Assembly: GCA_039583875.1 (NCBI GenBank)
Contig: CM077164.1
Location: 68,727,628-68,791,627, forward strand
Length of the DNA stretch: 64,000 nucleotides
Direction of reading: 5' to 3'
Source of the DNA: Platanthera guangdongensis
Taxonomy: Eukaryota > Streptophyta > Magnoliopsida > Asparagales > Orchidaceae
Shown here: positions 840 to 64,000 of the stretch, piece after piece
Position numbering within the stretch: position 1 is the first letter of the stretch
Layout: the number at the start of each line of letters is the position of its first letter
The notes under the pieces: model-generated
Told to the model about the DNA's origin: nothing
Databases searched by the model: none
What the model saw: the letters and a program-made list of their open reading frames with translations, nothing else
Made by a program: the position numbers and the translations under genes

Positions 840-1317
840 TATAATGCCCCCGGTTTTTCGATGATTTTATTTGTTTGGGAACGTCAGATTTATGACGTCG
901 TGGCGTTACTTTTAACGTCGATTTGATGTCGCAATGTCGTTAAGGCAATTTCACATCCGTGCGGTTGAGTAGGCCGAATTCTTGTTGTAATGGGAAGATT
1001 TTGCATTTAAAATTTAAGTTAAGTAATTTTGGACTTGCTCGTCAAGTTTCATCGCAATCCGAGCATTTTTGGAGTCTCGGCGCGCGATTGAAGTTTTGGA
1101 TTGTTTATGTTCGCCGTATGATTCGAAGATTAATATCTAGGGAATGGCTCGTCGGAATCTGGTCTTGATTTCTACGTTAGATTTGTAGCATTAGTGTTTG
1201 CCTTCGGTGCATGTTTCGTTTAATTCGGCGCTCGTCCGGGCTTCCGTGTTGAGTCGTCTCGAGAAGCTATGGTTCTACTTGATTAGCCCGTTTTAGATTT
1301 TACTCGGGCGCCTTTTT

Positions 1318-1440
1318 GAGGGTCAAAACGGCGTCGTATCAAAAAATGGTCAACATGCAATTTGTTCGACGCAAAGATATCTACAACTTTCATGTTGACC
1401 ACTTTTCGATTTGAGGTCGTTTTAAACCCCTAATTCCATG
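1318..1440 (+). repeat. Dyad module, first copy in the 5' LTR
   Basis: A segment of about 110 bp with GGTCAACATG near its left side and CATGTTGACC near its right, around a centre related to TCTCGACGAGA. Related copies occur at about 1690-1805, twice in the hairpin at 1933-2235, at about 10212-10330 and 10590-10700, and at 52385-52500. Confidence 0.75.
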
Positions 1441-1451
1441 TTTTCCGCTAT

Positions 1452-1664
1452 AACTCGAGTGGTGAGCTGCTACTCGAGTATATGCTACTTCTACTCGAGT
1501 AAGTCATGTTTTTACTCGAGTAATGAGCCTCTACTCGAGTATATTGTGTTACTACTCGAGTAGATATGTTATTACTCGAGTAGGTATGTTACTACTCGAG
1601 TAGGTATGCTGTCACTCGAATAGGTATGCTACTACTCGAGTAGGTATGCTGCCACTCGAGTAGG
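1452..1664 (+). repeat. Tandem palindrome array, CTACTCGAGTAG type, 5' LTR
   Basis: About ten copies of a perfect or near-perfect 12-bp palindrome (core CTCGAG) are spaced roughly 20-25 bp apart by short linkers such as GTATGCTA. The array lies upstream of the (TA)n tract that occupies the TATA-box position, that is, in U3. The same array is at 10354-10565 in the 3' LTR. Confidence 0.9.
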
Positions 1665-1689
1665 CTGTTTCTGTCTGTGTTCAGAGGCC

Positions 1690-1805
1690 GTTTTGAGGGT
1701 CAAAACGACATCGTATAGAAAAATGGTCAACATGAAATTTGTTCGTCTCGACGAGATCTACAACGTTAATGTTGACAATGTTTTGATTTGAAGTAATCCT
1801 AGATC
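1690..1805 (+). repeat. Dyad module, second copy in the 5' LTR
   Basis: It starts GAGGGTCAAAACG and has the inverted GGTCAACATG / TGTTGACA halves with the symmetric centre TCTCGACGAGA. It is present at the same relative place in the 3' LTR (10590-10700). Confidence 0.75.
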
Positions 1806-1883
1806 TCTATTTTGGGTTCCCGCAAAACCGCTCGAAATAAACCGTTTTTGACAAAACTTTTATAAATATATATATATATATAG

Positions 1884-2371
<488 letters not shown>

Positions 2372-4286
2372 GACTTAGGTTTTAGAACCAAAATTCATCT
2401 TCTCCGTTATTTTTCTCCCGAACCAAAGCAGTGAGCGAGAGAGAGAGTTTCTTTTTCGTGAATCTTCCGGTGGCCGCCGACGGTTCTCCGGTGCTCGAAA
2501 TCTTCAACGGAACTTAGATCCGGAAAGCTCTCGCCGAGAGCTACGCTATCGTGGTAATTTCTTCCCCATTCCTTGAGTTTTTTTCGTTAGGGTTTTTCGG
2601 CCCGAATCCCTTTTCCACCATTTTTGTCTAGATCTCAACCTCTCCCGCATCTTTTTGCCCCGATCTACGACGTGGAGTTATTCGGTGGACTTTTCCGGTA
2701 AAACCAAGGCAAGTGGTGGTTTCTCCTCATTTCTCCTTGTCTGATTCGATGGTAACGGCTATGTTTTCATGTTCCCTAAAATTTTCTACGCTTATTCTTC
2801 CAAATTATTGTTATGATTAACCGCTTTGTTGATCACATGTTGTTATGATGTTTTGCCATGCTAACTCGATCCTGTCTATTTATGTTTAATCGTTCTTGAA
2901 GTGTCTTACCGATGGCTTAAATGTCTTAGCTCTCGTTATCAAACGTATTAAAGTTTAATTAGGATTGTAAATCGTTCCTAATGGTTGATCAACCATGTCC
3001 GGAATCTAGTAATGTCAAGTAGAGTTTGTCGAGCCAAATCCCGAGATATTTGTGTTATGGTTTTTTTGGGTTTCTTGAATACGCGAGTTAGTGGACGATT
3101 CCACCTCCGCGGTATTTATTACCTTCATTAGTGCCCTGTGAAAGTCTACCTGGTTTTTCGATGCCTGCGGTGTATGGTGGAGAGCATGAGACTCCCTCGC
3201 AGTTAGATGGATAATATATCCATTTTTTTGAGTGGTGTGTCCAAGAGTGACCACTACGCCAGTGTTTTTCGGTGGTGTGTACAAGAGTGACCACTTCGCC
3301 GTGTTTTTGGGGTAGAGTCAACCACAAGTGCCTAATGAAGGTTTTGTACTTTCTTTCTGGAGAGATATGTTTGTAGTCACCTTATAGCCATGTGCGTCTG
3401 GTGCACCCTTGTGGAACGTGACAAGTCACGTTAGAGTTCTTTTCCTGTTGATGCCCAGTTTTCTTTTGTACATTACTTCAGTACTTTTGGTCTTGGGTTG
3501 GTACCCCGGTTGACCCCTTTGATTATTTTGGTTTATTACTTTTCCTGCCACCATTTGTACCTTCTTGCTGAGGTGTTCTGTTTTTGGAATGCCTCAGGTT
3601 CAGAGCAGTAGCAGTTAGCAGTGCTGGTGTTGGATTTCTGGCGGCAGTTTTGGCCGTGGTTGTTGCCTCATCTTAGCGAGGTAGTTTGTTGTTGGTTTAG
3701 TTTTACTAGTTCAGACATACTTTTGTATGTGAGTTCGTGTCAGCTTGTTGGCGCCCACTGATTGTTAGTTGTTGATACTTGCTAGCTTTTCATTTATTTA
3801 AAAGTGGATGTTTTACTTGCTCTCTGGTGAGGATTTATGCTAGGAATGCATGTTAGGTATTTTAAACTATAAAACCTACTACTACTACTTCATGCATTGC
3901 ATAATTTGAAACCTAACTTGTTATTTTTGGCGACCGTAAAAGCTATCTTCCCTACTATAATAAATTTAGAGTCTTGCATAGCATGAGTTGTCCTTTAAGG
4001 ACGTTTTTACTCATGTAGGATGTTTGAGTTAATCTAATCAAGTATTTTTCCGCAGCGTATAATATATTTTGATTCGTGGACTAGATGAGCCACTAAGTCG
4101 AGGGATACGGCTAACTTCTGCACTTAACTGATTTTCCTTAAAATAACTTAAAAGGAACCTTTCTTCATTGTCGGTTGGTGTCTTCCTGAGCGTCCGCAGT
4201 TATCCCCTGCTGACGTGGCATCATGACGCACATTTTCCCTTACTCTGATAAACTTTATTGGCGGTGAAAATGCGGGTTGTGACAGT

Positions 4287-4613: not shown

Positions 4614-4960
4614 TCATGCGTACGCCGCTCATAACATGCATTAGGGCCTTTTTAGAATGCATAGCACAATCATGCATAACATAAATTGCATAAGCACAAC
4701 GTGCCAAGCTAAAGATTGCGGGATGACGTATGTACACACATGGGTTTAAATCAGAAAACAAATATAAATACATGCATTCATGTCATAGGCACAAGAGTCA
4801 ATAGGATGAGAGGATATCATCCTAAGTAGGACATAGCATCATTATAAAATCCCAGAGCAAGTTGCAGCATAAGCGGGTGTCTTTTAAGTATGGTTCTGAA
4901 CTAGTTGTGTGGCTTTATCGTAAGCTAGGATTTTGATGAGTTGTTCGTTTGCTTTTTAGA

Positions 4961-6190
4961 ATGTCGCCAAAGCATCCTGCGGCGAGGTCGACTCCCCAGT
5001 CGGAGGTTGAGTCATCAGGTGCGCAAAGTGAAGCGATTATCGAGCGTCTGCGTCAGAGCAATGAGGCTCTATCAAGGCAGTTCGCTGCGATGCAATCGCA
5101 AATTGAGTCTTTGTTGTCTGCCGCTCCCGCGCAGCAACCTTCAGCGCAAGAGCCCGCCTCGGGCCAAGTCGTGCCCGATACCCCTGCTCCTCTGGTTCCC
5201 CCGATGGCGATACCACCAGAAATGAATTTCATATCGCACTTCCAGCGGTTGGGTCCTCCCACCTTCGACAGGAGTACTGAATTTGTGGTTATAGATGACT
5301 GGATCATCTCCATCGAGGAGATGTTTTCGTATTCTGGAATTCTAGAAGCCCAGAAGGTGATGATTGCAGCCTATCAGTTAAAAGGTCTGGCGAAGAGTTG
5401 GTGGATTCGGGAAAGAGAGAGCCTGAAGGAAGGCTGTACTTGGGAATCTTTTAAGAAGATGTTGCTGAAAAAGTTTCTGCCCTCGGTCGAGCAAGACCGC
5501 CTGATGAATAACTTCCTACATCTAAAGCAGAGACAGCTCACCGTGAGCGAGTACGAGATTGAGTTTAGCAAACTGAGCAGGTTTGCTCCAGATTTGGTAG
5601 TTTCTGAAGAGGGTAGAGTGAAACGTTTCTTGGGAGGACTACGAAGCGATGTCCAGCAGTTGGCATGCGCTTACCAAGCTGAAAGTTATGTTGAAGCAGT
5701 GGAAGCCGCTTTAAAAGTGGAGGCGATTGAAAACGCCAAGAATCGCGGTGCTGTGGCAAGGAAGGAGAAAAGAAAAGGTGTTGAGGATGGTAGCTCCAGG
5801 GCATTTGGCCCTTCTTCGAAGAAGAAAAGTAAGGATGTGTGTAGCTTCTGTGGTCAACCTGGCCACCCCTATGAAAGGTGCTTCAAGAGGACTGCAACCC
5901 TGAAGCAGCAGGTGCATGCCATCCAAGGTGCACCCAAGGGAGAGCTTGTGTGCTCGTTCTGTGCAAGGAAGGGTCATGATGTGACTCGTTGCTGGATGAA
6001 AGAAAGGGTTTGCTTCCAGTGTGGGCAGAATGGACACCAGAAGTCTTCGTTCCGCCAATCTCAGCCCCCACTGCAGCCTGCCCCACTTCAAGCTCTGCTG
6101 CCGCCGCCAAGCCTGGATAAAGGAAAGGGAAAGCTGAACGTGATGACCAGTGAGGAAGCCCAAACCTCTACGCAAGTGATATCAGGTTAG
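4961..6190 (+). CDS. gag: Gag of element 1
   Basis: Capsid/nucleocapsid precursor. I prefer the Met at 4961 (MSPKHPAARSTPQSE) over the one at 4949, because it aligns with the MARRPATRSTPQSE start of element 2. A coiled, Gln-rich N-terminus is followed by the Retrotrans_gag core (SWWIRERESL, LHLKQRQLTVSEYEIEF, about residues 140-230) and three CCHC zinc knuckles: CSFCGQPGHPYERC, CSFCARKGHDVTRC and CFQCGQNGHQKSSF. The third has lost its last Cys (to Phe). The frame closes at TAG 6188-6190. That stop lies within a probable intron (6186-6269); removing it joins gag to pol in frame. Confidence 0.88.
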   Translation: MSPKHPAARSTPQSEVESSGAQSEAIIERLRQSNEALSRQFAAMQSQIESLLSAAPAQQPSAQEPASGQVVPDTPAPLVPPMAIPPEMNFISHFQRLGPPTFDRSTEFVVIDDWIISIEEMFSYSGILEAQKVMIAAYQLKGLAKSWWIRERESLKEGCTWESFKKMLLKKFLPSVEQDRLMNNFLHLKQRQLTVSEYEIEFSKLSRFAPDLVVSEEGRVKRFLGGLRSDVQQLACAYQAESYVEAVEAALKVEAIENAKNRGAVARKEKRKGVEDGSSRAFGPSSKKKSKDVCSFCGQPGHPYERCFKRTATLKQQVHAIQGAPKGELVCSFCARKGHDVTRCWMKERVCFQCGQNGHQKSSFRQSQPPLQPAPLQALLPPPSLDKGKGKLNVMTSEEAQTSTQVISG

Positions 6191-6269
6191 CCTCAGTTTA
6201 ATCTATCCTTATTAATTATCCTTGTTGCCCTAGTTATTGTTCGTTTAGTTACGTATGTTACGGTTTTAG
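6186..6269 (+). other. Probable 84-nt intron joining gag and pol (element 1)
   Basis: The sequence after TCAG opens with GTTAGC and closes with GGTTTTAG. Excision removes exactly 28 codons, including the gag stop, and reads Ser-Gly-Glu-Phe-Lys-Val into the protease. Element 2 has a 93-nt segment with the same borders (CAG/GT...TAG/G) and the same junction peptide pattern SGxFKV, but different internal sequence and several stops. Confidence 0.6.
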
Positions 6270-9200
6270 GGGAGTTTAAGGTGCGGAATAGGTGGGCTCG
6301 CGTCCTTTTCGACTCGGGTGCCACCCATTCCTTTGTGGCCCGGAGATTTGTCGATAAGCACCATCTGAGTGTGGACCAATTAGGAGGCTCCTTCAATGTC
6401 AAGCTCCCTTCCGGTGATTCGGTGATATCTAACCAAGGAGTTCTGAGATGCCCTATCTGTCTTGGCAATTTTCTGGCTTATGCGGATCTGATGGTTTTAG
6501 ATCTGTCTGATTTTGACGTAATTCTGGGCATGGACTGGCTGTCCAAGTATGATGCGGTCATCCAGTGCAAGGCTAAGCGATTGGATTTCAGAATGGACGA
6601 CGGACAACCTATGAGCGTCTATGGATTTCAGGACAGAGTTTCTCCTGTCATTTCTGCGGTACGTGCTTATCGTGCTATAGGGTCTGGTTGCGAGGCGTTT
6701 TTGGTTTCTATTTCTGCTCTGGAAACAGCTTTTGTTACGCCACGTCTTGAGGATGTCTCGGTGGTGCGAGAGTTTCCAGATGTCTTTCCTGATAGTCTTC
6801 CAGGACTTCCTCCTGAAAGGGAGATAGAGTTGGTGATAGACCTCGAACCGGGCACTCGTCCCATTGCTAAAGCATCGTACCGTATGGCCCCGCGTGAGTT
6901 GGACGAGTTCCGTACTCAGCTCGATGAGTTGCTGAGGTGTGGTTTTATTAGGCCAAGTACTTCTCCATGGGGTGCTCCTGTTTTGTTCGTCAAGAAGAAA
7001 GATGGATCGATGAGACTTTGCATCGATTATAGGGAATTGAACAAGGTAATAATTAAGAATAGATATCCTCTGCCAAGGATTGATGATTTGTTTGACCAAT
7101 TGCATGGTAGCTCGATATTTTCAAAGATCGATCTTCGCTCAGGCTACCACCAGTTGAGGATTCGAGAGGTAGATATTCCTCGAACCGCTTTTCGTTCACG
7201 ACATGGACATTATGAGTTTCTGGTGATGTCTTTTGGTTTAACCAATGCACCTTCTGCCTTCATGGATTTGATGAATCGGGTGTTCAAGGATTTCTTGGAC
7301 CGATTTGTTATTGTGTTCATAGATGATGTCTTGGTGTACTCTCGCAATGTTGAGGAGCATACTCAGCATTTGCGTCTGATTTTGTCGAGCCTGAGGGAGC
7401 ATAAGTTATATGCGAAGTTGAGCAAGTGTGAGTTTTGGTTACCTCAGGTGTCCTTTCTGGGTCATGTGTTAAGCAAGGACGGTATTTCTGTGGACCCGAC
7501 TAAGATTTCTGCAGTAATGGAATGGGAGAGACCTTCTACGCCGAAGGAGATTAGGAGTTTCTTAGGCCTACCTGGCTATTACAGAAGATTCGTGGAAGGA
7601 TTTTCGGTGTTGTCTGCTCCTCTAACTAGACTTACTCAGAAGAATACTGCTTTCATTTGGAGTGATAAATGTGAAGAGGCTTTCCAAGAGCTGAAGAGGA
7701 GATTATGTACTGCTCTGATTTTAACCTTACCTACTAAGGGAGTTGAGTATGCTGTGTATGTCGATGCGTCACATATCGGCCTTGGTTACGTTTTAATGCA
7801 AGATGGTAAGGTGATTGCGTATGGATCGAGACAACTAACGATCCACGAGAGAAACTATCCGACGCACGATTTGGAGTTTGCTGCTGTAATTTATGCACTG
7901 AAGCTTTGGAGACACTTATTATATGGCGCGATGTGCAAGATCTATACTGACCATAAGAGTTTGAAGAGCGTCTTCACTCAAAAGGAGCTAAATCTGCGCC
8001 AGCGTCGGTGGTTAGAATATGTAGCAGATTATGAAGTGGAAATTCTTTATCATCCAGGAAAGGCTAATGTAGTAGCCGATGTCTTGAGTAGAAAGACCGC
8101 TAAGATTTTTAATCTATCGGTGCAGTCCTTGATAGAAGACTTTTTGTTGATGGATATTGAGGTTGGGAGTAGTACTGTGCCTGATAGTCTAGAAGCAGAA
8201 GAACCCTCTTGGATTTCCCTTACTCGAGCACATCAGAAGGATGATTTGGACTTGTTACATCTCCGGAATAGAACGGTGAAGGGAGAGCTACCCGATTTAT
8301 CTGTGGACGAGTTGGACACCCTGAAGTATTGGGGTAGATTTTGCATCCCCGCCTTTGACGATATTCGAGCTAAGATCTGTGCTGAAGCTCATGGTTCTAG
8401 TGTAGCCTACCACCCTGGCTCCATAAAGATGTATAAAGATCTGAAGCAAATTGTTTAGTGGTCAGGGATGAAGAACGACATCGAAAAGTTTGTATCGGAA
8501 TGTTTTACATGTTAGCGTGTTAATGCTGATCATAGAAGGCCTGGTGGTAAGTTGACACCGCTTGATATTCCAAATTGGAAGTGGGAAAGTATTTCAATGA
8601 ATTTTATCACCGGTCTGCCAAAGTCTCCCTGTGGGCATGACTCTATTTGGGTGATAGTCGACAGATTGATAAAGTGTGCTCACTTTGTTCCATTTAAGAT
8701 TGGGTACTCGATGAAGAAGATAGCTGAGTTATATCTTGAGGAGGTCATCAGGTTACATGGTGTGCCTGTTAGCATCGTATCAGATCGAGACTCTAGATTT
8801 ACGTCTCGCTTTTGGAAGAGTTTACAGGAGGGGTTGGGTACCGATTTAAGGTATTCCACCGCCTATCATCCTTATACTAATGGTCAGACGGAAAGAGTAA
8901 ATCAAATCGTAGAAGATATGATCAGGTGTTATATTTTGGATCATGGTGGTGCTTGGGATGAGCGTCTCAGACTCATGGAGTTTTCTTACAATAACAGTTA
9001 TCAAGAGAGTCTGCAGATGGCTCCATTTGAGGCCTTGTATGAGAGGCGTTGTAGAACCCCTCTGTTTTGGGCTGAAGTTGGTGAGAGACCGTTGTTAGGT
9101 CCGGAAGCCCTTGAAGAGATGAATTGTGCCGTGACCCATATTCGGGAAAAGCTTTGTGTGGCTCAAGAACGCTATGAGAAATATGCTAATCTTCGAAGGG

Positions 9201-9634
9201 TCGATCTGGAGTTTGCGGTTGGAGACTTGGTGTTTCTGAAGGTTTCTCCAATGTCCGGTGTTAAAAGATTTGGTAGGAACAACAAGTTAGACCCCCGGTA
9301 TGTGAGACCTTTCCAGATTCTTGAGCACATCGGAGTGTCGGCTTATAGGTTGGAATTGCCTGCTACCTTCCCTGGTGTCCATGATGTGTTCCATGTGAGC
9401 CAGTTGCGGAAATGTGTTCGTAATAATCGTCAAGTCCTCGACTCGATACCCCAGATTCAGCCCAACCTTACTTATGTGGAAGAACCTGTTCGTGTTCTGG
9501 ATTTTCAAGAGCGGGTGTTGCGGAGAAAGACCATCCCTATGGTCAAGATTCTTTGGAGAAATCAAGACGTCAAGAGCGCGACGTGGGAATTGGAATCGGT
9601 GATGAGGGGATCTCACCCGCACCTCTTCTCTTAG
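6270..9634 (+). pseudogene. pol: Pol of element 1: protease-RT-RNase H-integrase-chromodomain, two nonsense codons
   Basis: One frame throughout. Aspartic protease [11 protein letters not shown] is at 6305-6340. RT shows CIDYRELNK, the FIDD form of the YxDD box near 7320, and [12 protein letters not shown]. RNase H shows [10 protein letters not shown] (about 7759) and YTDHKSL (about 7945). The integrase zinc finger is split by stops at 8456-8458 (a Trp codon in element 2) and 8513-8515 (expected Gln). In the DDE core the first Asp is Asn (codon 8600-8602, in SMNFITGLP), while SDRDSRF and GQTERV keep the second Asp and the Glu. The C-terminus (PMVKILWRN, ATWELESVM) is chromodomain-like. Terminal stop at 9632-9634. 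Two stops and the D-to-N change make it non-functional. Confidence 0.92.
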
Positions 9635-9738: not shown

Positions 9739-10353
9739 GACTGTAACGCCCCCGATTTTTCGATGATTTTATTTGTTTGGGAACGTCAGATTTATGACGT
9801 CGTGGCGTTACTTTTAACGTCGATTTGACGGCGCAATGTCGTTAAGGCAATTTCACATCCGTGCAGTCGAGTATGCCGAATTCTTGTTGCAATGGGAAGA
9901 TTTTGCATTTGAAATTTAAGTTAAGTAATTTTGGACTTGCTCGTCAAGTTTCATCGCAATCCGAGCATTTTTGGAGTCTCAGCGCGCGATTGAAGTTTTG
10001 GATTGTTTATGTTCGCCGTATACTTCGAAAATTAATATCTCGGGAATGGCTCGTCGGATTCTGGTCTTGATTTCGCCGTTAGATTTGTAGCATTAGTGTT
10101 TGCATTCGGTGCAAGTTTCGTTTAATTCGGCGCTCGTTCGGGCTTCCGTGCTGAGTCCTCTCGAGATGCTATGGTTCTACTCGATTAGCCCGTTTTAGAT
10201 TTTACTCGGACGCCTTTTTGAGGGTCGAAACGGCGTCGTATCAAAAAATGGTCAACATGAAATTTGTTCATCTCGACGAGATCTACAACTTGCATGTTGA
10301 CCACCTTTCAATGTGAGGTGGTTTTAAACCCCTAATTCTGTTTTTTCCGCTAT

Positions 10354-10565
10354 AACTCGAGTGGTGAGCTACTACTCGAGTATATGCTGCTTCTACTCGA
10401 GTAAGTCATGTTTTTACTCGAATAATGAGCCTCTACTCGAGTATATTGTGTTACTACTCGAGTAGATATGTTATTACTCGAGTAGGTAAGTTACTACTCG
10501 AGTAGGTATGTTGTTACTCGAGTAGGTATGCTGCTACTCGAGTAGGTATGCTGCCACTCGAGTAG
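10354..10565 (+). repeat. Tandem palindrome array, CTACTCGAGTAG type, 3' LTR
   Basis: Counterpart of 1452-1664. Most CTCGAG cores are intact, and some are CTCGAA through point change. Confidence 0.9.
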
Positions 10566-10766
10566 GCTGTTTCTGTCTGTGTTCAGAGGCCGTTTTGAGG
10601 GTCAAAACGGCATCGTATCGAACAATGGTCAACATGAAATTTGTTCGTCGCGACGAGATCTACAACTTTAATGGTGACAATGTTTTGATTTGAAGTCATC
10701 CTAGACCTCTATTTTAGGTTCCCGCAAAACTGCTCGAAATAAACCGTTTTGACAAAACTTTTTATA

Positions 10767-10868
<102 letters not shown>

Positions 10869-12787
10869 GACTTAGGTTTTAGAACCAAAATTCATCTTCT
10901 CCGTTATTTTTCTCCCGAACCAGAGCAGCGAGCGAGAGAGAGAGTTTCTTTTTCGTGAATCTTCCGGTGGCCGCCGACGGTTCTCCGGTGCTCGAAATCT
11001 TCAACCGAACTTAGATCCGAAAAGCTCTCGCCGAGAGCTACGCTATCGTGGTAATTTCTTCCGCATTCCTTGAGTTTTTTTCGCTAGGGTTTTTCGGCCC
11101 TAATCCCTTTTCCACCATTTTTGTGTAGATCTCAACCTCTCCCGCATCCTTTTGCCCCGATCTACGACGTAGAGTGATTCGGTGGACTTTTCTGGTAAAA
11201 CCAAGGCAAGTGGTGGTTTCTCCTCATTTCTCCTTGTCCGATTCGATGGTAACGGCTATGTTTTCATGTTCCCTAAAATTTTCTACGCTTATTCTTCCAA
11301 ATTATTGCTATGATTAACCGCTTTGTTGATCACATGTTGTTATGATGTTTTGCCATGCTAACTCGATCCTGTCTATTTATGTTTAATCGTTCTTGAAGTG
11401 TCTTACCGATGGCTTAAATGCCTTAGCTCTCGTTATCAAACGTATTAGAGTTTAATTAGGATTGTAAATCATTTCTAAGGGTTGATCAACAATGTCCGGA
11501 ATCTAGTAATGTCAAGTAGAGTTTGTCGAGCCAAATCCCGAGATATTTGTGTTATGGTTTTTTTGTGTTTCTTGAATGCGCGAGTTAGTGGACGATTCCA
11601 TCTCCGCGGTATTTATTACCTTCATTAGTGCCCTGTGGAAGTCTACCTGGTTTTTGGATGCCTGCGGTGTATGGTGGAGAGCATGAGACTCCCTCGCAGT
11701 TAGATGGATAATATATCCGTTTGTTTTGAGTGGTGTGTCCAAGAGTGACCACTACGCCTGTGTTTTTCGGTGGTGTGTCCAAGAGTGACCACTTCGCCGT
11801 GTTTTTGGGGTAGAGTCAACCACAGGTGCCTAATGAAGGTTTTGTACTTTCTTTTTGGAGAGATATGTTTGTAGTCACCTTATAGTCATGTGCGTATGGT
11901 GCACCCTTGTGGAATGTGACAAGTCACGTTAGAGTTCTTTTCCTGTTGATGCCCAGTTTTCTTTTGTACATTACTTCAGTACTTTTGGTATTGGGTTGCT
12001 ACCCCGGTTGACCCCTTTGATTATTTTGGTTTATTACTTTTCCTGCCACCATTTGTACCTTCTTGCTGAGGTGTTCTATTTTTGGAATGCCTCAGGTTCA
12101 GAGCAGTAGTAGTTAGCAATGCTGGTGTTGGATTTTTGGCGGCAGTGTTGGCCGTGGTTGTTGCCTCATCTTAGAGAGGTAGTTTGTTGTTGGTTTAGTT
12201 TTACTAGTTCAGACATACTTTTGTACGTGGGTTCGTGTCAGCTTGTTGGCGCCCACTGATTGTTAGTTGTTGATACTTGCTAGCTGTTCATTTATTTAAA
12301 AGTGGATGTTTTACTTGCTCTTTGGGAGGATTTATGCTAGAAATGCATGTTAGGTATTTTAAACTATAAAAGCTACTACTACTACTTCATGCATTGCATA
12401 ATTTGAAACTCTAACTTGTTATTTTTGGCGATCGTAAAAGCTATCTTCCCTACTATAATAAATTTACAATCTTGCATAGCATGAGTTGTCCTTTAGAGAC
12501 GTTTTTACTCATGTAGGATGTTTGAGTTAATCTAATCAAGTATTTTTCCGCAGCGTATAATATATTTTGATTCGTGGACTAGATGAGCCACTAAGCCGAG
12601 GGATACGGCTAACTTCTGCACTTAACTGATTTTCCTTAAAATAACTTAAAATGAACCTTTCTTCATTGTCGGTTGGTGTCTGCCTGAGCGTCCGCAGTTA
12701 TCCCCTGCCGATGTTGCATCATGACGCGCATTTTCCCTTACTCTGATAAACTTTATTGGCGGTGAAAATGCGGGTTGTGACAATGAA

Positions 12788-13634: not shown

Positions 13635-15035
13635 TGTCACAACCCGCATTTTCTCAGCGGTAAAAATAGTATCAGAGTAAGAGAAAACACGTGCCGTGAT
13701 GCCACGTCGTGCAGGGGATAACTCCACACGCTCAGGCAAAACTCCAGACCTAAGATTTTAAGGAAACACGTTGATTAAATATGAAAGAAAATCAGTTAAG
13801 TTGGATGGCCGTATCCCTCGGCACAGTGGATCAGCTAGTCCAAATGTAAAACTATATCTATATGCAGCAAAAAATACTTTGGTTCAAATTAAGTAGACAC
13901 CCTAAATAAGCACGAGAGTCCCCGGGGGGACGACTCATGGTATGCACGACTCTAAGGTGATTATTATAGGTATAAAAGACAGTGTTTTACGTTGAGGAAA
14001 AATAGTATCATTGTTTTAGAAAACATGTTATGCATGGAGTACATATAGCATTACTTTTAGGTTTTAAAATATCTAACATGCAACCTAGCATAAATCCTTC
14101 CCAAAAGCAAGTAACCAACCACGAAAAGGCAAAATCAGCAGTTTAATTTCATATCCAGCATCACAAGGAGCCACCAGTGGGCATCAACAACCTGACACGA
14201 ACCCACTAGCGAGTATGTATGTCTATATAGAAAAGTAAGGAGCTACCTCACAACAAAACGGGGATCAGCTACCTCAGCAACCCTAGAGGCCACCAACAGC
14301 CCCTCCAAAAGAACTAGTCGCAGAACTGGCTACAACCTGTACCTGAGAAATTCAAGAAAGGAACACCTCAGCAAGGAAACAATCAAGAGGTGAAAATAGA
14401 GCAATAAATTAATTAGTAAATTAAGAAAAAGGGTTTACCAACCCGGCAACAAACTACAATAAGCAAAAGAAAAGGGGATGACAGTAAGAAAAGAATGCTG
14501 TCAAAAACACCACAGAGCGCACCAAGTGCGAGCAATACAACCAATATGCCTTACCAAGAGAGAGCATGCAATAGCATCAAGACATATTCATATGCCAAAA
14601 GAAGGGAAAGCATAATCAGGAAAGGGACTAACAGTCCTAATATGTGGGAAGTGGCAGTGGTCAAAACATGGATCTGAAAACATAACCAAAATCAGACCCA
14701 AAAAGGGCTAAGGGGTCAAACAGTGGCAGCTTTAGGGTCCCACACACACCAACCCAAACCGGGCAAAAGGTGGTGGCCACAGCTCTCCACATAAAACCAC
14801 CCCTCCAGAGGCCACCAAAACTCCACCACCTACCACAACCCAAGAGTCGGCATACAGAAATTAGCCGAACACCCAATGCCTCCCCCTAGGGAAAAAGTCA
14901 CTCTAACAATCCTAAGAAACACACGAACCCAAGACAAAAATGTCGGGTCCAGCCGACGCGGCCTTGCACGCCTAACCCGAACCAACCCCGAGTCTACCTG
15001 ACCCAAAACAAGCACATCACCAGTGTCGTCATGAT

Positions 15036-15629
15036 GTGTCGACACCACGACAAGCCGGTGTCGACACAAGGTGTCGACACAATCGCCGCCGGTGTCGACA
15101 CCAAGTGTCGACACCACAGCGGCCGGTGTCGACACCAGGTGTCGACACCGCCGCGGCTGGTGTCGACACCAAGTGTCGACACCACTGCTGCCGGTGTCGA
15201 CACATGGTGTAGACACTGCCGCTGCGGGTGTCGACACCAAGTGTCGACACCACTGCGGCCGGTGTCGACACATGGTGTCGACACTGCCGCTGCGGGTGTC
15301 GACACCAAGTGTCGACACCACTGCGGCCGGTGTCGACACATGGTGTCGACACTGCCGCTGCGGGTGTCAACACCAAGTGTCGACACCGCTGCGGCCGGTG
15401 TCGACACATGGTGTCGACACTGCCGCTGCGGGTGTCGACACCAAGTGTCGACACCACTGCGGCCGGTGTCGACACATGGTGTCGACACTGCCGCTGCTGG
15501 TGTCGACACCAAGTGTCGACACCACGACTGGCCGGTGTCGACACCAAGTGTCGACACCATGACTGGCCGGTGTCGACACCAAGTGTCGACACCAAGACTG
15601 GCCGGTGTCGACACCACAGTGTCGACACC
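15036..15629 (-). repeat. Tandem palindrome array, GGTGTCGACACC type, left LTR
   Basis: About 594 bp in which GTGTCGACAC recurs roughly every 17 bp. Two alternating 34-bp units, with spacers CACTGCGGCC and TGCCGCTGCG, make a higher-order period of about 68 bp. The long ORFs read through it on both strands are a by-product of the repeat. The array lies downstream of the TATA box, hence in the transcribed leader. Confidence 0.92.
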
Positions 15630-16204
15630 CCAGCTGGCTACAGGAGCCAGATCCAGCAACGACCAAAAAACGAGAACGGGGATTCTCTCTCTCTCTCGAG
15701 TACAACCTCCATCGGCAATGGTAACTACTCGACCTAGACCGAACCAAATCTGCCCCTAATAGACACAATCCCTCAGGAAAACTGAGATTTAACTGGAACT
15801 TTCTACACTAACCACGGTATGATCGGGAACAAGCCCTAGCTTACACCTAAGATCTAAACAAGAAAGACATAAAAGATTAAATCGAAAGAAAGACAAAGAT
15901 CAGCTTTGGCAAGGATGAGGGGACATCACTTGCCTAAATACCAGAAAACTTGGTCGGCGGCCTCCCCCGCTCACGGATCTGACCGCAGAGCAGCAAGCTG
16001 AGGAGCAGAAAGAATGCAGATCCCGGCGAGGGCAGTCCAGATCCACTCTCGAAACCGGATTCCGACCGCTAAATCTCCAGGAATCGGCGTCCGAAGGCTA
16101 GGGTAGACCGACGTTTCTCTTCCTCACGCACAGGCGGCGGCTTCTATCAAGCAGAGACACAGGAAAAGGAGAAAAGGAACCCAGCCCTAGTTCTAACCCA
16201 AGAC

Positions 16205-16210
16205 TATATA
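16205..16210 (-). promoter_or_regulatory. TATA box in the left LTR of element 2
   Basis: TATATA within GACTATATATCAG, about 395 nt from the LTR start on the minus strand. It is repeated at 24562-24567 in the other LTR. Confidence 0.6.
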
Positions 16211-16607
16211 TCAGATTTATAAATAAACAATCAACATAATAATTACTATTTACACCCAACATCAAAACAACCCGAAACCCGAAACTTCTCGGAAACAGAC
16301 AAAATTCACGCCGCAGCTAAAAACCCACGCTACGAGCACAACTGCGAAGTCGAAATTAGCATTCGACGAACGAAACCCGGGATAACACTTCCCGAAGCCA
16401 AAACACAAGCATTCCCTAAGAGGCCCAGCCGAGTCATCAAACAGACTCCGGCTAGCTGGGGAATCTTGCTAACAGGCTACAAACAGGCTACACAGGGAAC
16501 CCTAAGAGCTAAAACCACGCTCTACAACGGCACAAAGCCGGAAAATACGCCATCGTAACGCCAACCGAAGATCAAACATAACACAGAAAAACCGGGGGCG
16601 TTACAGC

Positions 16608-33414: not shown

Positions 33415-33609
33415 TTTATTTGTTTTTGACCCAGTTTACCTTGGGCCTAGGTTGATAACCTTTAAATTCAGAAATGAAAGACATCCCAGGTTGACTCTCA
33501 TATCCTTCAGGGTGATATCTCCTTGGAGGTAAAATTCATTCAGTATAAGGGTTATAGATTTGGGATGAAGAACTCTTAGGATTCAATTTTGATTTGCCGT
33601 TGAAAAATT

Positions 33610-50071: not shown

Positions 50072-51611
50072 TGATGCGTGTAAATCGGCAAGCGCACCGG
50101 TCGCACAAGTAATAAAGTTTGTGAATAAATCCCCGAGTGTCAGTCTCTTGAGGAATTCAATTAGCATAGAGCGACAACAGTTCAGAAAATATTGTTATGA
50201 GGGTTATACTTAGAAAAAGAGTAAAAAGGGGACTTGAGAGATTGTGGTTGTTTGATCGAATAAACTAATTAAAGCTATGCGTGTCGAAGGCACCGCTGCG
50301 CAAGGTGAGATGAGTGTATCGGCCGCGATGTCGAACTTCAGTTGGGCGAGTGGCCGAAAAGCTAATGGGTGGAAGTGTTATTGTGGTGGAGTGCAATCGG
50401 GCGAAACATGGGTATGGAGTGGATGTGGAGTGGGCGAGGCGCATTCACACACACAACTATAAGCATAAGGAAACTACAAACATCTCATTAGACATACAAT
50501 AGAACATGTAGTTCATTACAATGTTATATCATTCCATACAGCAGAGGAAGGGGAAGAGGAGTAAACCAAAAGAGAGTGAAGATCCACCGCAGGTCGTGGA
50601 CGGAATAGCGAGTTGTCAATCCGCTTCCAGGCTCAGTCCGAGGAGGTTCCGGTACCAACGAGCTGTCACCTCGAAGGCCTTTGAATCCGTTCTTTAGGAT
50701 GTCTTCTTCTCCAACTCCAGTGGAAAGCTTGGAGTTGAGGTCGTCAATGGCCGGGAGCTTCGCCGGAGAGTTTGGAAAGTTTCGGAATAGCCGGCTATGG
50801 ACTCCCGATGAAGGTGGAGGTGATGGAGCAGCTGGAGAAGTAAAATGGTGCTTCCCGCGCACTCCCCGATCACAGAAAATGACGGGCGTTGACCAAAATC
50901 GCGGAGCAGACCCTTAAATACGGAGGTAGCAAAAGCAAAGCGCACGATCAGTGGCGCACGACCAGTGGTCGTGCGCACTGTAGCTCGATGATCGCTCGCC
51001 ATTTCCAATTAAACCTGCAACCTGGATAGAAACATCAGCAGATATGCGCACGATCAGTGGCGCACGACCGGTGGTCGTGCGCACTGAATCCACTGATCGT
51101 GCGATAGGCTAGGACAGATTTGCAGAAAGTAAGGGGTAAATGCGCACAAGCAGTGGCGCACGACCAGTGGTCGTGCGCACTATGGCCAGTGCTCGTGCGA
51201 TTACCCGGGCAGAATTAGGAAAAATGAGAATGTAATGCGCACGATCAGTGGCGCACGACCAGTGGTCGTGCGCAATAAGTCCAGTGGTCGTGCGCAGTAA
51301 GTCCAGTGGTCGTGCGCAGTGTTCCTGCATTGTCGGGGTCTCCCGAGCGGTTCCAGAGCACGCACACGAACCCTGCACCAGCAGAAGAGACAGGTAGGCC
51401 ACCAAACGTGCACTCCACATTCCCAAGACATGGCAAAAGAACCACACAAACACAGAAACAAATAAAGCACACAGAAACGGGCCTAAAGTGCACTTCATCA
51501 TAAAATAAGCACGTAAGCAAATATAAGCAGTTATGGCTCTCAAGTGTAGTGCTAAGACGATAAAACTGGCCCAGATGAGTCCAAAAATCAGTGTAAAATT
51601 TGGACTCATCA
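50072..51611 (-). repeat. 5' LTR of element B
   Basis: In plus orientation TGATGCGTGTAAATCGG...TGGACTCATCA, 1540 bp. U3 has the GTGGTCGTGCGC palindrome cluster (50940-51320). A TATA-like ATTTAA lies near 50915. The outer end is a 12-bp stem hairpin (51574-51610). Confidence 0.85.
50940..51320 (-). repeat. Palindrome cluster, CACGACCAGTGGTCGTG type, element B LTR
   Basis: At least five long palindromes with core CACGACCAGTGGTCGTG flanked by GCG/CGC, together with CGCACGATCAGTGGCGCACG variants. The unit recurs about every 100 bp, plus closely spaced single CAGTGGTCGTGCGC halves at 51260-51320. Confidence 0.88.
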
Positions 51612-51796: not shown

Positions 51797-51834
51797 GACA
51801 CGCCCTGGGACACGCCCGTGTCCCAGGCCGTGTC
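51797..51834 (-). repeat. Nested palindrome in LTR F
   Basis: GACACG...CGTGTC outer arms enclose CTGGGACACG/CGTGTCCCAG inner arms. About 35 bp from the LTR start on the minus strand. Confidence 0.8.
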
Positions 51835-51869: not shown

Positions 51870-51974
<105 letters not shown>

Positions 51975-60107: not shown

Positions 60108-60282
60108 AGTAAACCGCACAGGCCGCGCGGTTAGACAGAAGGACTAACCGCACGGCTTACAGTAAGAGATGCAGAGAGGTCGCCTGTGAAGATTGCTAGA
60201 CCGCCCGGTTTACAAGTCGCCGAGTCAAACCGCCAGACCGCGCGGTCTCCAACCCGCCAAGACAGACCGCCCGGTCTCCAAC
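60108..60282 (-). repeat. Palindrome cluster, GACCGCGCGGTC type, element G LTR
   Basis: AACCGCAC...GCGCGGTT, GACCGCCCGG, AGACCGCGCGGTCT and AGACCGCCCGGTCT. The same motif class also occurs in the element 0 LTR. Confidence 0.85.
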
Positions 60283-60362: not shown

Positions 60363-63300
60363 CTAAAAAAGGCTTGGAATGAAGATGTCAGCTAGCTCTT
60401 TATCAGATGTGACAAACGGAGTGCAAATCTGTTCTTTTAAAATCTCTTTACGAATGAAATGGCAGTCAACCTCAATGTGCTTTGTTCTTTCATGGAATAC
60501 CGGATTTTTGGAGATGTATATGGCGGCCTTGTTATCACAGAACATAGGTAGAGGATGGTTGTACACCTCTCCTAAATCTAGCATGAGAGCCCACAACCAT
60601 TTCAACTCACAAGTGGTTGACGCCATACTGCGATACTCAGCTTCTGCACTGGACCTGGAGACAACAGACTGCTTTTTACTCTTCCAGCTCACCAGATTTC
60701 CCCCAACAAAGGTGCAAAAACCTGAGGTAGACTTGCGATCCCCTTTGTCATCAGCATAACTTGCATCTGAGTAGGCTTCAATCCTCAGATGACCATTCTT
60801 CTGAAACAGTAATCCTTTCCCAGGCGCTGCTTTGACATATTCCAAGATCCGCAAGGCGGACTGAAGATGACAATCCCTGGGCGCTTGCATGAATTGACTC
60901 ACCTTGCCCACAGCATAAGAAATGTCGGGTCTGGTCACTGTGAGATATATGAGCTTACCAACCAGACGCCTGTACCGCGAACTATCTGAAAGAAGAGGCG
61001 AATCATCTGTCCAGGTTTTGTCCTCCCCAATAGCCATGGGACATCGGGCAGGTTTTGCTCCAGTCAATCCTGCCTCTTTTAAAAGATCAAGGGCATACTT
61101 ACGCTGAGAGAGAACTAAGGAGTCGGGCTTCCGAGAGAGTTCGATCCCCAGAAAGTACTTTGGAGAGCCCATATCTTTAGTGATCAGATGTTGGCGAAGA
61201 TGTAGCTTTGTCAGGGCTACCCCTTCCTGGTCATCGCCAGTGAGAAGAATATCATCGACATATACAGCAAGAACAACCAGCCCAGAAGGAGTTTTGCGAA
61301 TAAAGAGAGAGTGATCAGCAGAGCTTCGCACAAAACCAACAGCCGCCACAATACCGCTGAACTTGTCAAACCAAGCTCGAGGACTCTGCTTGAGGCCATA
61401 AATTGCCTTCTGCAGCCGGCATACTCGTGTCTCCCCCTGAGCAACATACCCAGGAGGTTGCTCCATGTAAACGGCCTCGTGAAGATCACCATAAAGGAAG
61501 GCATTCTTGACGTCCAGCTGAGAAATTGGCCAATCCCGATTGACGGCCACAGAGAGAAGAACCCGGATTGTGCTGAGACGAGCCACAGGGGAGAAGGTGT
61601 CAAAGTAATCAACCCCATAGGTCTGAGTAAAGCCCTTAGCCACAAGGCGAGCCTTATACCGATCCACAGTGCCGTCTGGGCTAAATTTGACCACAAAGAC
61701 CCAGCGACAGCCAACAACATCAGTGCCAAAGGGAGGAGGAACAAGAGTCCAGGTACCCCGCTCAGTGAGGGTCGCCATTTCCTCATCCATGGCCATCTTC
61801 CAGTGAGGAATAGCAAGGGCCTCCTGATAGGAGCGGGGTGTGGCAGTGACAGAGATAGCCAGTGCAAAGGCCCTGCGAGAAGGAGTAAGACGATCATAGG
61901 AAACAACAGCAGCAAGGGGGTGTAAGGTGCACGTCCGCACCCCTTTGCGAAGAGCTATAGGAAGATCCAGGTCAGTCGGGCCCGCGACATCCGGAGCATC
62001 TGTGGTAGAGAAAGCTGGCCCGGGAGAAGAGAGCGACGGCAGCGGAGAGGAGGGAGAGGGTGGTGGGGAAGGGAGAGAGAGAGGTGGAGGAAGAGGAGGG
62101 GGTGGAGACGGTGTAGTGGTGGAGAGTGTAGGAGGAGACGAGGGAACGAAGGGAACGGCAGGAGAATCAGAAGCTGGGAGAAGAGGAGAAGAGGCATCCG
62201 AGAAGTAGGAGGTATTCTCGAAGAAGGTGACGTCAGCAGAGACGAACTGCTTACGAAGGACGGGATCAAAGCAACAGTAGCCTTTCTGAGTGGTGGAATA
62301 CCCCAGAAAGACACATTTGGTGGAGCGAGGGGAGAGCTTATCACGGGTGGCAGAAGGGGCATGCACAAAGGCAGTGCATCCAAAGATTTGGAGAGGGAGA
62401 TGAAACGGCTCCTTGCCCGGATACAAAATGGAGAACGGGGTTTGGCCATGGAGAACCGTGGAGGGAATGCGATTGATGAGGTAGCAGGCAAGGAGAACAG
62501 CATAGCCCCAATAGGAGCGAGGAACATGCATCTGGGTCATCAAGGTGCGAGCGACATCGAGCAGGTGTCGGTTTTTGCGTTCGGCTACACCATTTTGTTG
62601 TGAAGAATAGACACAACTAGTTTGATGAAGAATCCCATTTTGCATGCAGAATGTAGAGAAGTCACGACTGAGATATTCTGCGGCATTATCAGACCGAAAA
62701 ACTTTGATAGAAACATCAAACTGAGTTTTGATCATGAGATAGAAGGATGTCCATACAGAGGATAATTCGGAGCGATCTTTTAACAGATACACCCACGTAC
62801 AGCGAGAGAAATCATCAATGAACATGACAAAATAGGAACTACCCCGACCAATGGTAAGAGTAGGAGAAGGACCCCAGATGTCGGAGTGGATAAGATCAAA
62901 CGGACGGGTAGAGCTACGAACGTGCTTTGGAGGGAAGGAGGAGCGGTGATGCTTGCCAAGCTGACAGGCCTCACAGTTGAGCGGAGGACTTTGAGGAGGA
63001 AGGTGGGGCAGAAGTTGACGAAGAAGACGGGGAGGAGCATGACCAAGGCGGAGATGCCATTGGAGAAGATCTGTGGAGGTGGAGGAGAAGGTGGAAAAAG
63101 CAGAAATGTTGTCGAGGAAGTATAAGCCGCCACTCTCAGTCCCAGTAGCAATCGTCCGTTGGGAGTCCGGATCCTGAAAAGAGCAAGAAGTAGAAGTAAA
63201 TGTGACGGAACACTGTAATTGCTTGCAAAGAGATGTAACAGATAATAAGTTGCACGGGAACTGGGGCACATATAGAGTATCCGCCAAGTGAAGAGACGGG

Positions 63301-63587
63301 GTGACATGAACTATCCCTGTGCCATGAACTGATGATGAAGAGCCGTCAGCGAGAGTAACTGGGGGCAAGCGAGCATGTTTTTCTAGGAGAGAGAAACACG
63401 GGAGATGGCCGGTCATATGATTCGTAGCACCAGTGTCGATCAGCCATTTGCCCTGAGTAACAACGTGTGCACGACCAGAAGACGTGACAACCGAGGCGAA
63501 AGCCATGAAGGGAGGAAGAAGAAACTGCAGCGGTCTCGGTGACAGCACACCAACGGCACGAAGGGCGACGACCAAGGTGCAGAGCAC
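60363..63587 (-). CDS. pol: Pol of element G: protease-integrase-RT-RNase H
   Basis: A 1074-codon open frame on the minus strand. Protease WLIDTGATNHMTG is at the N-terminal side; the pre-integrase has WHLRLGHA...CEACQLGK; the integrase has SDIWGPS, VFRSDNAAEY and NGVAERKN; a Pro/Ser-rich hinge follows; RT has CRWVFVVKFSPDG, VDYFDTFSPVARL and YVDDILLTGDD; RNase H has SWKSKKQSVVSRSSAEAEYR and the IEVDCHFIRKE end. All catalytic residues I can check are present. It stops at TAG 60363-60365, but the same frame continues for about 20 codons (LHVCDKLGMIDIYAPA) to a TGA at 60297, so the very C-terminus is probably lost to a nonsense change. The best-preserved coding unit in the window. Confidence 0.92.
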   Translation of the reverse strand: MLCTLVVALRAVGVLSPRPLQFLLPPFMAFASVVTSSGRAHVVTQGKWLIDTGATNHMTGHLPCFSLLEKHARLPPVTLADGSSSSVHGTGIVHVTPSLHLADTLYVPQFPCNLLSVTSLCKQLQCSVTFTSTSCSFQDPDSQRTIATGTESGGLYFLDNISAFSTFSSTSTDLLQWHLRLGHAPPRLLRQLLPHLPPQSPPLNCEACQLGKHHRSSFPPKHVRSSTRPFDLIHSDIWGPSPTLTIGRGSSYFVMFIDDFSRCTWVYLLKDRSELSSVWTSFYLMIKTQFDVSIKVFRSDNAAEYLSRDFSTFCMQNGILHQTSCVYSSQQNGVAERKNRHLLDVARTLMTQMHVPRSYWGYAVLLACYLINRIPSTVLHGQTPFSILYPGKEPFHLPLQIFGCTAFVHAPSATRDKLSPRSTKCVFLGYSTTQKGYCCFDPVLRKQFVSADVTFFENTSYFSDASSPLLPASDSPAVPFVPSSPPTLSTTTPSPPPPLPPPLSLPSPPPSPSSPLPSLSSPGPAFSTTDAPDVAGPTDLDLPIALRKGVRTCTLHPLAAVVSYDRLTPSRRAFALAISVTATPRSYQEALAIPHWKMAMDEEMATLTERGTWTLVPPPFGTDVVGCRWVFVVKFSPDGTVDRYKARLVAKGFTQTYGVDYFDTFSPVARLSTIRVLLSVAVNRDWPISQLDVKNAFLYGDLHEAVYMEQPPGYVAQGETRVCRLQKAIYGLKQSPRAWFDKFSGIVAAVGFVRSSADHSLFIRKTPSGLVVLAVYVDDILLTGDDQEGVALTKLHLRQHLITKDMGSPKYFLGIELSRKPDSLVLSQRKYALDLLKEAGLTGAKPARCPMAIGEDKTWTDDSPLLSDSSRYRRLVGKLIYLTVTRPDISYAVGKVSQFMQAPRDCHLQSALRILEYVKAAPGKGLLFQKNGHLRIEAYSDASYADDKGDRKSTSGFCTFVGGNLVSWKSKKQSVVSRSSAEAEYRSMASTTCELKWLWALMLDLGEVYNHPLPMFCDNKAAIYISKNPVFHERTKHIEVDCHFIRKEILKEQICTPFVTSDKELADIFIPSLF

Positions 63588-64000
63588 AAGCCGCGCGACT
63601 AAACCAGGAGGTCGCGGCGACTAACAAGAGAAGCGGCTAAGAGCGAAGAGGCGGAGAGGCCGCTCAAACAAGGAAGAATCCGCGTGAAACCGCGGCGGGA
63701 ACAAAAGGGAAGAAGCCGCGTGAACACGAGCGGCTAGGATTCAGATCAAGGCACAGCGGGGAAGAAGTCGCGCGGACTGCAAAGGGCCGAGCGAACAGAA
63801 GAGAGGAGAAGAGCAGGTGACCGCGACCAAGATGCGGGTAAGAAAGGGACAACCCGCACGGTCAGGCAGATCACAGCAGTTGCGAGAATGCGGTCAAGGG
63901 CACAGCGGGGAAGAGGTCGCGCGGACTGAAAAGGCCGAGCGAACAGAAGAGAGGAGAAGAGCAGGTGACCGCGACCAAGATGCGGGTAAGAAAGGAACAA
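63588..64000 (-). repeat. GC-rich palindromic region in the place of the element G gag end
   Basis: A tandem duplication of about 150 bp (63752-63852 against 63903-64000), rich in CCGCG, GTCGCGCGGAC and GACCGCGAC motifs. On the minus strand it lies just upstream of the protease, where a CCHC gag end is expected, yet no zinc knuckle is visible. Motifs match the G LTR palindromes. Confidence 0.6.

Follow-up and report, generated by a model that had tools for sequence, protein, structure and literature searches.

We analysed arrays of short palindromes in the long terminal repeat (LTR) retrotransposons of Platanthera guangdongensis, starting from a 64,000-nt stretch (the window) of its 4.25 Gb genome; loci elsewhere in the same genome carry L-numbers. 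Self-comparison of the window revealed three complete LTR elements, E1 (840-12782), E2 (13635-24962, minus strand) and E3 (25059-37142, minus strand). E1 and E2 belong to the Ty3/gypsy superfamily and E3 to Ty1/copia; their domains were located by Pfam and by similarity to E1. The arrays of the three elements lie 170-1586 bp into the LTR, and E3 has further arrays in its internal region. RT denotes reverse transcriptase.

840..4284, plus strand: E1 5' LTR, self-BLAST pair with 9742-12782, ends read
1449..1664, plus strand: array in the E1 5' LTR, 11 sites of TACTCGAGTA (8 exact) in steps of 19-21 bp, at 609-824 bp into the LTR
4940..9634, plus strand: three open frames for E1 gag and pol, with Retrotrans_gag, RVP_2, RVT_1, RNase H and SH3_Tf2-1
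9742..12782, plus strand: E1 3' LTR, from self-BLAST, ends read
10351..10566, plus strand: array in the E1 3' LTR, 11 sites of TACTCGAGTA, 8 exact
13635..16605, minus strand: E2 LTR, its ends identical in kind to those of E1
15020..15638, minus strand: E2 array of GTGTCGACAC, 36 sites with 33 of them exact, steps alternating between 13 and 21-22 bp
22095..24962, minus strand: other E2 LTR, from self-BLAST, ends read
23480..23991, minus strand: array of GTGTCGACAC in the other E2 LTR
25059..26577, minus strand: E3 LTR, from self-BLAST, ends read
26115..26407, minus strand: E3 LTR array of CGTCGA-N7-TCGACG and its half-sites
26749..29346, minus strand: E3 env-like open frame, between pol and the 3' LTR
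29916..30154, minus strand: E3 internal array, 5' of the env-like frame; a TATAAAA lies at 29874
30250..35179, minus strand: E3 frames for RT/RNase H, integrase and gag (the last two recognised by Pfam, the first by its sequence)
33631..33851, minus strand: E3 internal array around the gag/pol boundary
35625..37142, minus strand: other E3 LTR, from self-BLAST, ends read
36707..36972, minus strand: array in the other E3 LTR

E1 and E2 have matching LTR ends yet different palindromes. All 6 exact copies of CTACTCGAGTAG in the window lie within the two LTRs of E1 and all 18 of GGTGTCGACACC within those of E2, while E3 holds 23 of the 25 window copies of ATCGTCGA and 15 of the 15 of TCGACGAT. The E2 array is built on a regular 34/68-bp unit, and the units of E1 and E2 are in part tandem repeats. 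Sireviruses are copia elements with an extra env-like frame between pol and the 3' LTR; we take E3 to be Sirevirus-like from its copia domains and its env-like frame.

Palindromes exceed chance in the LTRs

Perfect palindromes of at least 10 bp were counted in each region and compared with 200 dinucleotide shuffles of it. The two E1 LTRs contain 9 and 10 palindromes against shuffle means of 3.0 and 2.4 (equalled by 2 and 0 shuffles), and the E2 LTRs contain 34 and 25 against means of 1.8 (equalled by 0 and 0). Enrichment is weak in the E3 LTRs, with 4 and 4 palindromes against a mean of 1.3, a count equalled by 5 and 6 shuffles. The internal regions of E1, E2 and E3, with 3, 3 and 5 perfect palindromes, fall under their shuffle means, and the remainder of the window (37143-64000) is at chance level, with 23 observed and 23.2 expected. 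Taken together, elements 0, G, A, B, C and F of that part thus show no surplus of perfect palindromes.

An earlier note on this DNA had claimed that every LTR family in the window carries a cluster of short, repeated, CpG-containing palindromes, mostly inside the LTR, and had proposed dinucleotide shuffling as a check. That check bears out the E1 and E2 LTRs, and weakly those of E3, but neither the internal regions nor 37143-64000. Because the excess in the LTRs of the three complete elements has no counterpart in 37143-64000, the claim does not hold for every family, although the clusters are real in E1, E2 and E3 (weakly in E3) and in part in the elements B and C described below. Confinement to the LTR describes most clusters, but E3 also has the two outside it at 29916-30154 and 33631-33851. 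The description of the motifs as short, repeated and CpG-containing, above chance and present in both gypsy and copia elements, was upheld.

Clustering was further examined in a random sample of 20 stretches of 10 kb from the same genome (L005-L024, 200 kb), with fake palindromes as controls in which the letters were paired otherwise (A-C/G-T, A-G/C-T, or mirror). A cluster required at least three equal arms in steps of at most 600 bp; such clusters are not families, and several can describe one array. True palindromes formed 4 clusters in the window and 10 in the random sample (7 with CpG, 3 without), compared to 0, 0, 0 and 0, 1, 1 for the respective controls. With arms of 6 and loops of up to 5, the window gave 11 clusters (controls 0, 0, 0) and the sample 25 (controls 0, 1, 1). 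Under looser settings, clusters were found in 12 of the 20 stretches, 9 of them with CpG, compared to 0, 3 and 4 for the controls (with CpG 0, 0 and 3); the mirror control thus reached CpG clusters in 3/20 stretches versus 9/20 for true palindromes. Among the 340 ten-bp palindromes of the random sample, 95 are the E2 motif GTGTCGACAC and 29 the E1 motif TACTCGAGTA.

Sharp core edges and regular spacing

When copia arrays were anchored on TCGA only, the extent of the conserved core was apparent from the flanking bases. In arrays of GTGTCGACAC (110 anchors), conservation is 95-97% over the three bases flanking TCGA on either side and 48-49% at the adjoining outer bases; in arrays of TACTCGAGTA (245 anchors) the corresponding values are 79-96% and 31-54%. 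The edges are looser in L015 (53-100% inner, 47-53% outer). The picture is unchanged when sites are picked at up to 3 mismatches (129 and 300 sites), and the possibility that the edges are an artefact of picking sites by their core was rejected, as TCGA-only anchoring keeps them.

Steps of 18-24 bp make up 73-100% of all steps in five array sets, and the gap between CGTCGA and TCGACG is 7 in 24 of the 30 pairs in the sequences examined. Genome-wide, GTGTCGACAC forms 939,392 pairs at 18-22 bp versus 34,635 at 23-27 bp, and TACTCGAGTA forms 109,547 pairs at 18-22 bp with none for its reversed control. The reversed controls of the genome-wide counts gave 0, 1, 0 and 2 pairs, and the single decoy used, the TCGA-centred palindrome CAGTCGACTG, gave 0 pairs genome-wide.

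The same cores occur in gypsy and copia elements

Both TACTCGAGTA and GTGTCGACAC are found in gypsy LTRs (E1, E2, L035 and 11 of the 17 LTRs of L036-L052) and in copia elements. The copia carriers include L023, with arrays of TACTCGAGTA (35 LTR sites, 21 exact; RT 59% to E3), and L021, with arrays of GTGTCGACAC (39 LTR sites, 30 exact; RT 61% to E3), both presumably Sirevirus-like, to judge from copia domains and an env-like frame. The 14 loci at exact matches to CTACTCGAGTAG include 10 of the L023 type, from about 7 elements; the L003 and L004 loci overlap, and each of the pairs L027/L028 and L031/L032 is probably a single element. A gypsy relative of E1, L022/L035, carries an array of its own, made of ACTCGAGT, in the corresponding part of the LTR.

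The sequences between the sites behave differently from the cores. Spacers of gypsy and copia arrays resemble each other at a near-chance level (z -1.4 to 2.9, six comparisons), as do those of E1 and L035 (z -1.0), compared to z 13-23 for five same-family pairs. With spacers near-unrelated and cores alike, these words originated or persisted irrespective of the sequence around them. The palindromes had been described as private to each family; those of E1 and E2 are each common to copia elements, and motifs common to the two superfamilies rule out a private family signature.

To see how the motifs are distributed among close relatives, we read about 400-1650 bases past the LTR start in 17 gypsy LTRs (L036-L052) that share the start common to E1 and E2, hand-picked from 100 listed places on one contig (4,662 genome-wide). 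Six carry TACTCGAGTA, five GTGTCGACAC and three GACACG-type sites (L039, L040, L045); TACTCGAGTA and GTGTCGACAC occur together in 0/17 in the part read. CGTCGA-N7-TCGACG, the E3 motif, is mostly found in copia elements, with one copy each in the gypsy LTRs L040 and L045 at an identical 7-bp gap, which is no more than suggestive of sharing with gypsy elements.

Copia relatives likewise differ in their motifs. L015, with mainly TTCTCGAGAA-like sites, and L023, with TACTCGAGTA, are 82-83% alike on both flanks of the array, and L026 is mixed, having TACTCGAGTA and TTCTCGAGAA forms plus half-and-half sites. In L023-type LTR arrays, the half-and-half form (A..A) accounts for 30 of 195 CTCGAG sites and the full alternative for none, so that motif change seems to proceed via asymmetric sites.

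Several further motif forms were noted. Arrays in L001 (1380-1620), L002 and L025 mix GACACGGGCGTGTC with CTCGAG palindromes. GACACG-N2-CGTGTC is the GTGTCGACAC half-site turned outward. The related sequences L007 (3380-3638) and L015 (8445-8980) hold clusters of ACTTGCAAGT, whose centre is GC and not CG. Very densely packed hairpins, for example GGGCGGACTCC..GGAGTCCGCCC and GGCCGCCC..GGGCGGCC, stand 24 and 16 in a row in L009 (3495-4276) and L016 (5708-6324), respectively.

Promoter context, CpG content and folding

Arrays are repeated upstream of the env-like frame in E3 (29916-30154), L021 (4408-4727), L023 (2655-2880) and L026 (about 1350-1510). TATA-like words occur in 9 of the 15 segments scanned, and in L021 and L023 they follow the arrays at both promoters.

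The E3 LTR array contains 30 CpG in 293 bp (observed/expected 1.73) compared to 2 in the remaining 1226 bp (0.04). The corresponding ratios for array and rest of the LTR are 1.16 and 1.13 in E1 and 1.08 and 0.73 in E2, and the arrays of L023 and L021 reach 1.27 and 0.76. Since insertion, CpGs have decayed to the same extent within palindromes (8/72) as outside them (45/345, P 0.85), where the outside CpGs include those of L006, an element without the motifs. The copies therefore show no sign of protection once inserted, and protection of palindromic CpGs after insertion was rejected.

Whole arrays fold as RNA far better than their shuffles in the two cases tested (E1, z -9.4; E3, z -4.8). Single sites of TACTCGAGTA and GTGTCGACAC are loopless 10-mers that do not fold alone (0 kcal/mol), while three gapped motifs do so (-11.2, -18.4 and -18.9). 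Hairpin RNA is a consequence of the palindrome arrays, single loopless sites having no fold.

The env-like frame

The E3 env-like frame has no match in Pfam, and a relative of it in L018 has a sub-threshold match to PF20167. Between families the env-like domain is 23-35% identical, in pieces, compared to 58-69% for RT/RNase H. A structure model built from five relatives was uninformative (pLDDT 34.5), and a protein search with the env-like domain alone returned 0 matches. Four Platanthera gene models, P0003, P0005, P0009 and P0010, seem to be fusions of env-like retroelement sequence with unrelated genes; two of the four are named methylthioribose kinase and deoxyhypusine synthase, and P0005 and P0009 have other Pfam domains. 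These fusions are likely annotation artefacts.

Other elements in the window

The rest of the window contains the following palindromic features.

43436..43604, plus strand: element C, TACCGC/GCGGTA half-sites clustered at about 140-310 bp past the LTR-start-like TGTAACACC at 43294
48514..48571, minus strand: element A, two CATGACC..GGTCGTG palindromes that precede the first ATG of an open frame by about 180-240 bp
50940..51320, minus strand: element B, four copies of GCGCACGACC-N3-GGTCGTGCGC and half-sites, adjoining TATTTAA at 50920
51804..51827, strand not assigned: element F, single 24-bp hairpin CCTGGGACACGCCCGTGTCCCAGG
60198..60276, strand not assigned: element 0/G, three GACCGCSCGGTC-like sites past the end of a copia pol (minus strand)

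The open frame downstream of the element A palindromes is, we assume, Athila-like. In element C, six TACCGC/GCGGTA half-sites fall within 43295-43700, compared to a mean of 0.2 in 2000 letter shuffles, none of which reached 6, and the cluster adjoins a gypsy integrase remnant. The four gapped 23-mers of element B at 50954-51273 also form a real cluster. The 0/G motif has one more site at 37349, each of the four being within one mismatch. Long pure AT repeats occur in the E1 LTRs (2259-2368 and 10770-10865) and in the flank of element F (51873-51972). In Table 3 of Bousios 2010 (PMC2829016), the Inga Sirevirus box AGCGGTASTACCGCT has the same GCGGTA half-site as element C.

Close relatives in the window had been said to carry different palindromes. 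This holds for E1 and E2 but not for elements A and B, which have one CACGACCAGTGGTCGTG-like motif in common.

Discussion

We think it probable that the arrays are phased cis-regulatory sites for shared homodimeric, sequence-specific DNA-binding factors. A dyad 10-mer with sharp edges, repeated at about every two turns between free spacers, placed at promoters and present in unrelated carriers, is best fitted by cooperative dimeric binding. Sites roughly 20-21 bp, or two turns, apart in the control region of the LTR would face about the same side of the helix; Sirevirus-like copia elements have a second set of arrays in front of the env-like gene. The genome would then use few specificities, namely TACTCGAGTA with the neighbouring TTCTCGAGAA, GTGTCGACAC, CGTCGA-N7-TCGACG and probably GACACG-N2-CGTGTC. 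Gypsy and copia families may draw on the same factors, and sister families inside each superfamily would have switched specificity. The candidate factor is most likely a host transcription factor family with related members. Protein binding, its dimeric state, and either raised expression or countered silencing are what we infer for the arrays.

Several observations weigh against this reading. Only 48% of steps in E2, with its 13+21 pattern, are 18-24 bp, the genome-wide contrast between 18-22 and 23-27 bp covers GTGTCGACAC alone, and count windows of 5 bp are too coarse for a finer helical phase. Compensating changes inside sites were looked for and are not in excess. Arrays also expand by tandem duplication, so that sites inside one array are not independent, and copies within one family share descent. 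In the random sample, the 95 copies of GTGTCGACAC are spread over 4 stretches, with 93 of them in L021 and L022, and all 29 of TACTCGAGTA lie in L023. One gypsy-copia spacer comparison reaches the upper value of z 2.9, on 30 shuffles. Among the 17 gypsy LTRs, L041 and L043 have no cluster in the part read, those of L049 and L050 are weak (7 and 6 sites within one mismatch), and that of L048 belongs to a nested B-type element interrupting the LTR. The core of L015 is less exact (5/19 sites). TATA-like words, confined to 9 of 15 segments and lacking beside the E2, E3-LTR, C and L015 arrays, are weak evidence.

The binder could instead be encoded by the elements. The Sirevirus env-like protein would then bind at its own promoter and LTR, activating or unsilencing the element as VANC does for VANDAL transposons, and gypsy elements that evolved the same sites would freeload. 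Arrays do stand 5' of the env-like frame in E3, L021, L023 and L026; Bousios 2010 (PMC2829016) describes motifs before env in env-bearing Sireviruses only; and the targets of VANC are short motifs in tandem repeats that differ between related transposable elements (TEs), with VANC6 motifs also occurring in one unrelated TE (PMC5735166). The rapid divergence of the env-like domain relative to RT/RNase H speaks for such a binder but may reflect no more than weak constraint. Pfam found no DNA-binding domain in the protein, the sub-threshold match is to a family without assigned function, the sole structure model is uninformative, and env-less Sireviruses such as OPIE-2 and PREM-2 retain LTR motifs (PMC2829016). 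We consider this explanation unlikely, and a shade more so its fuller form, a VANC-like self-encoded switch in which the env-like protein would bind phased palindromes at the LTR and its own promoter, its specificity would change symmetrically by half-sites from TACTCGAGTA to TTCTCGAGAA, gypsy elements would evolve these palindromes and exploit a protein they do not encode, and several coexisting codes would sort the retrotransposons of the genome into regulons irrespective of superfamily.

The remaining alternatives dispense with a protein or with independent origin. That RNA or single-stranded DNA hairpins, feeding siRNA production or dimerising element RNA, are the selected feature is improbable: the E1 and E3 arrays fold far beyond shuffles, the motifs of B and F and CGTCGA-N7-TCGACG make good hairpins, and maize small RNAs are in excess on Sirevirus palindromes (Bousios 2016, via PMC10760457 and PMC5311732), but the two commonest motifs are unfolded alone, any palindrome array folds, and hairpins do not predict two-turn spacing, 10-bp edges or free spacers. 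Capture of an array by one superfamily from the other through recombination, such that sharing reflects descent, would account for the identical 10-bp cores. Nesting of one element in another is seen at L022/L035 and L048, and capture could also explain the reported presence of maize Sirevirus palindromes in Helitrons (PMC10760457). Against it, gypsy-copia spacer similarity is low, two motifs and perhaps a third are shared, and even the spacers of E1 and its relative L035 are unrelated, which leaves capture with quite a small chance of being correct. Neutral tandem-repeat turnover, in which slippage multiplies a chance palindrome and hairpins promote expansion, suits the partly tandem units of E1 and E2 and the regular E2 unit. 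We judge it very improbable, as fake palindromes hardly ever cluster, cores are kept while spacers differ, the same cores occur in two superfamilies, and the TCGA-centred decoy formed no pairs. Integration into palindromes was also rejected as a cause; PMC6911290 gives merely a slight target-site preference.

The earlier note had offered sites for dimeric factors, silencing targets, and hairpins for self-recognition as possible functions. Judged from the sequences, the first appears to be the best explanation of the palindromes. On silencing, the sequences show that CpGs in palindromes decay like other CpGs. Hairpins do not explain the two commonest motifs, whose single sites stay unfolded, although both whole arrays tested fold far better than shuffles. 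Self-recognition by a private code is unlikely because identical 10-bp words turn up in gypsy and copia alike, between near-unrelated spacers.

Comparison with known systems

The BII boxes of Tnt1 and the 13-bp motif of Tto1 are familiar U3 examples of regulatory words that are repeated within an element and vary from one sister family to the next. These enhancer repeats have far fewer copies, and we know of no report of them as a palindrome code common to gypsy and copia elements.

The palindromic boxes that Bousios 2010 (PMC2829016) reported for Sireviruses lie in the LTR and ahead of env, and that paper states that classic copia elements lack them. The arrays of E3, L021, L023, L026 and L015 resemble these RM boxes in being palindromic, many-copied, placed in the LTR as well as 5' of env, and different between elements. 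The boxes are also CpG-rich and have a TATA box close by; here the CpG ratio varies from 1.73 in the E3 array to 0.76 in L021, and TATA-like words occur in 9 of 15 segments. The boxes number at least 8 palindrome copies per element, as do the LTR arrays of L023 (35) and L021 (39). Unlike the RM boxes, which have a CGG-CCG core in 12/13 cases, the cores here are TCGA-centred or of the CGTCGA type, and whereas the boxes are said to be Sirevirus-specific, the cores also occur in gypsy E1, E2, L035 and 11/17 gypsy LTRs. The literature examined, in the parts available, names no binder for the 2010 boxes.

In titles and the beginnings of abstracts, with most subscription papers outside the scope, no palindrome arrays in gypsy LTRs were found, and the name of PF20167 together with "retrotransposon" gave 0 papers; the word palindrome was not found in the available text of the Platanthera genome paper (PMC9023349). 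As far as these searches show, the gypsy-LTR boxes, the exclusive classes of sister LTRs, the core edges, the spacing and the genome-wide scale are new. That gypsy LTRs contain these words at similar spacing, in a genome with about 1 million such site pairs, suggests that the recognising factor may act in trans across superfamilies. The motifs provide short, exact bait sequences for isolating such a factor and predict groups of co-regulated retrotransposons, and if the factor is element-encoded, the plant env-like gene would gain a function.

Cross-class sharing has a precedent in maize, where the Sirevirus palindrome is the commonest motif of structured regions in Helitrons (PMC10760457). Palindrome clusters in LTRs are common to both cases, those of maize being linked to small RNAs; in contrast to the Helitrons, the sharing here is with gypsy LTRs, which have their own arrays and near-unrelated spacers. 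Retand gypsy elements (PMC11963269) similarly have a long region from pol to the 3' LTR with tandem repeats and extra open reading frames (ORFs), many with a predicted DNA-binding domain proposed to be regulatory. The Retand ORFs are antisense with a TRP28 domain, and the available text of PMC11963269 does not describe a shared palindrome code. In the VANC/VANDAL system (Hosaka 2017, PMC5735166), short tandem-repeat motifs likewise occupy non-coding parts of TEs, differ between related TEs and in one set occur in an unrelated TE. VANDAL elements are Mutator-like DNA transposons, while E1, E2 and E3 have LTR retrotransposon domains; the VANC binder is known, and the word palindrome does not occur in the text of PMC5735166, whereas the binder here is a candidate. 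By analogy, VANC may serve as the nearest working model for the arrays described here.

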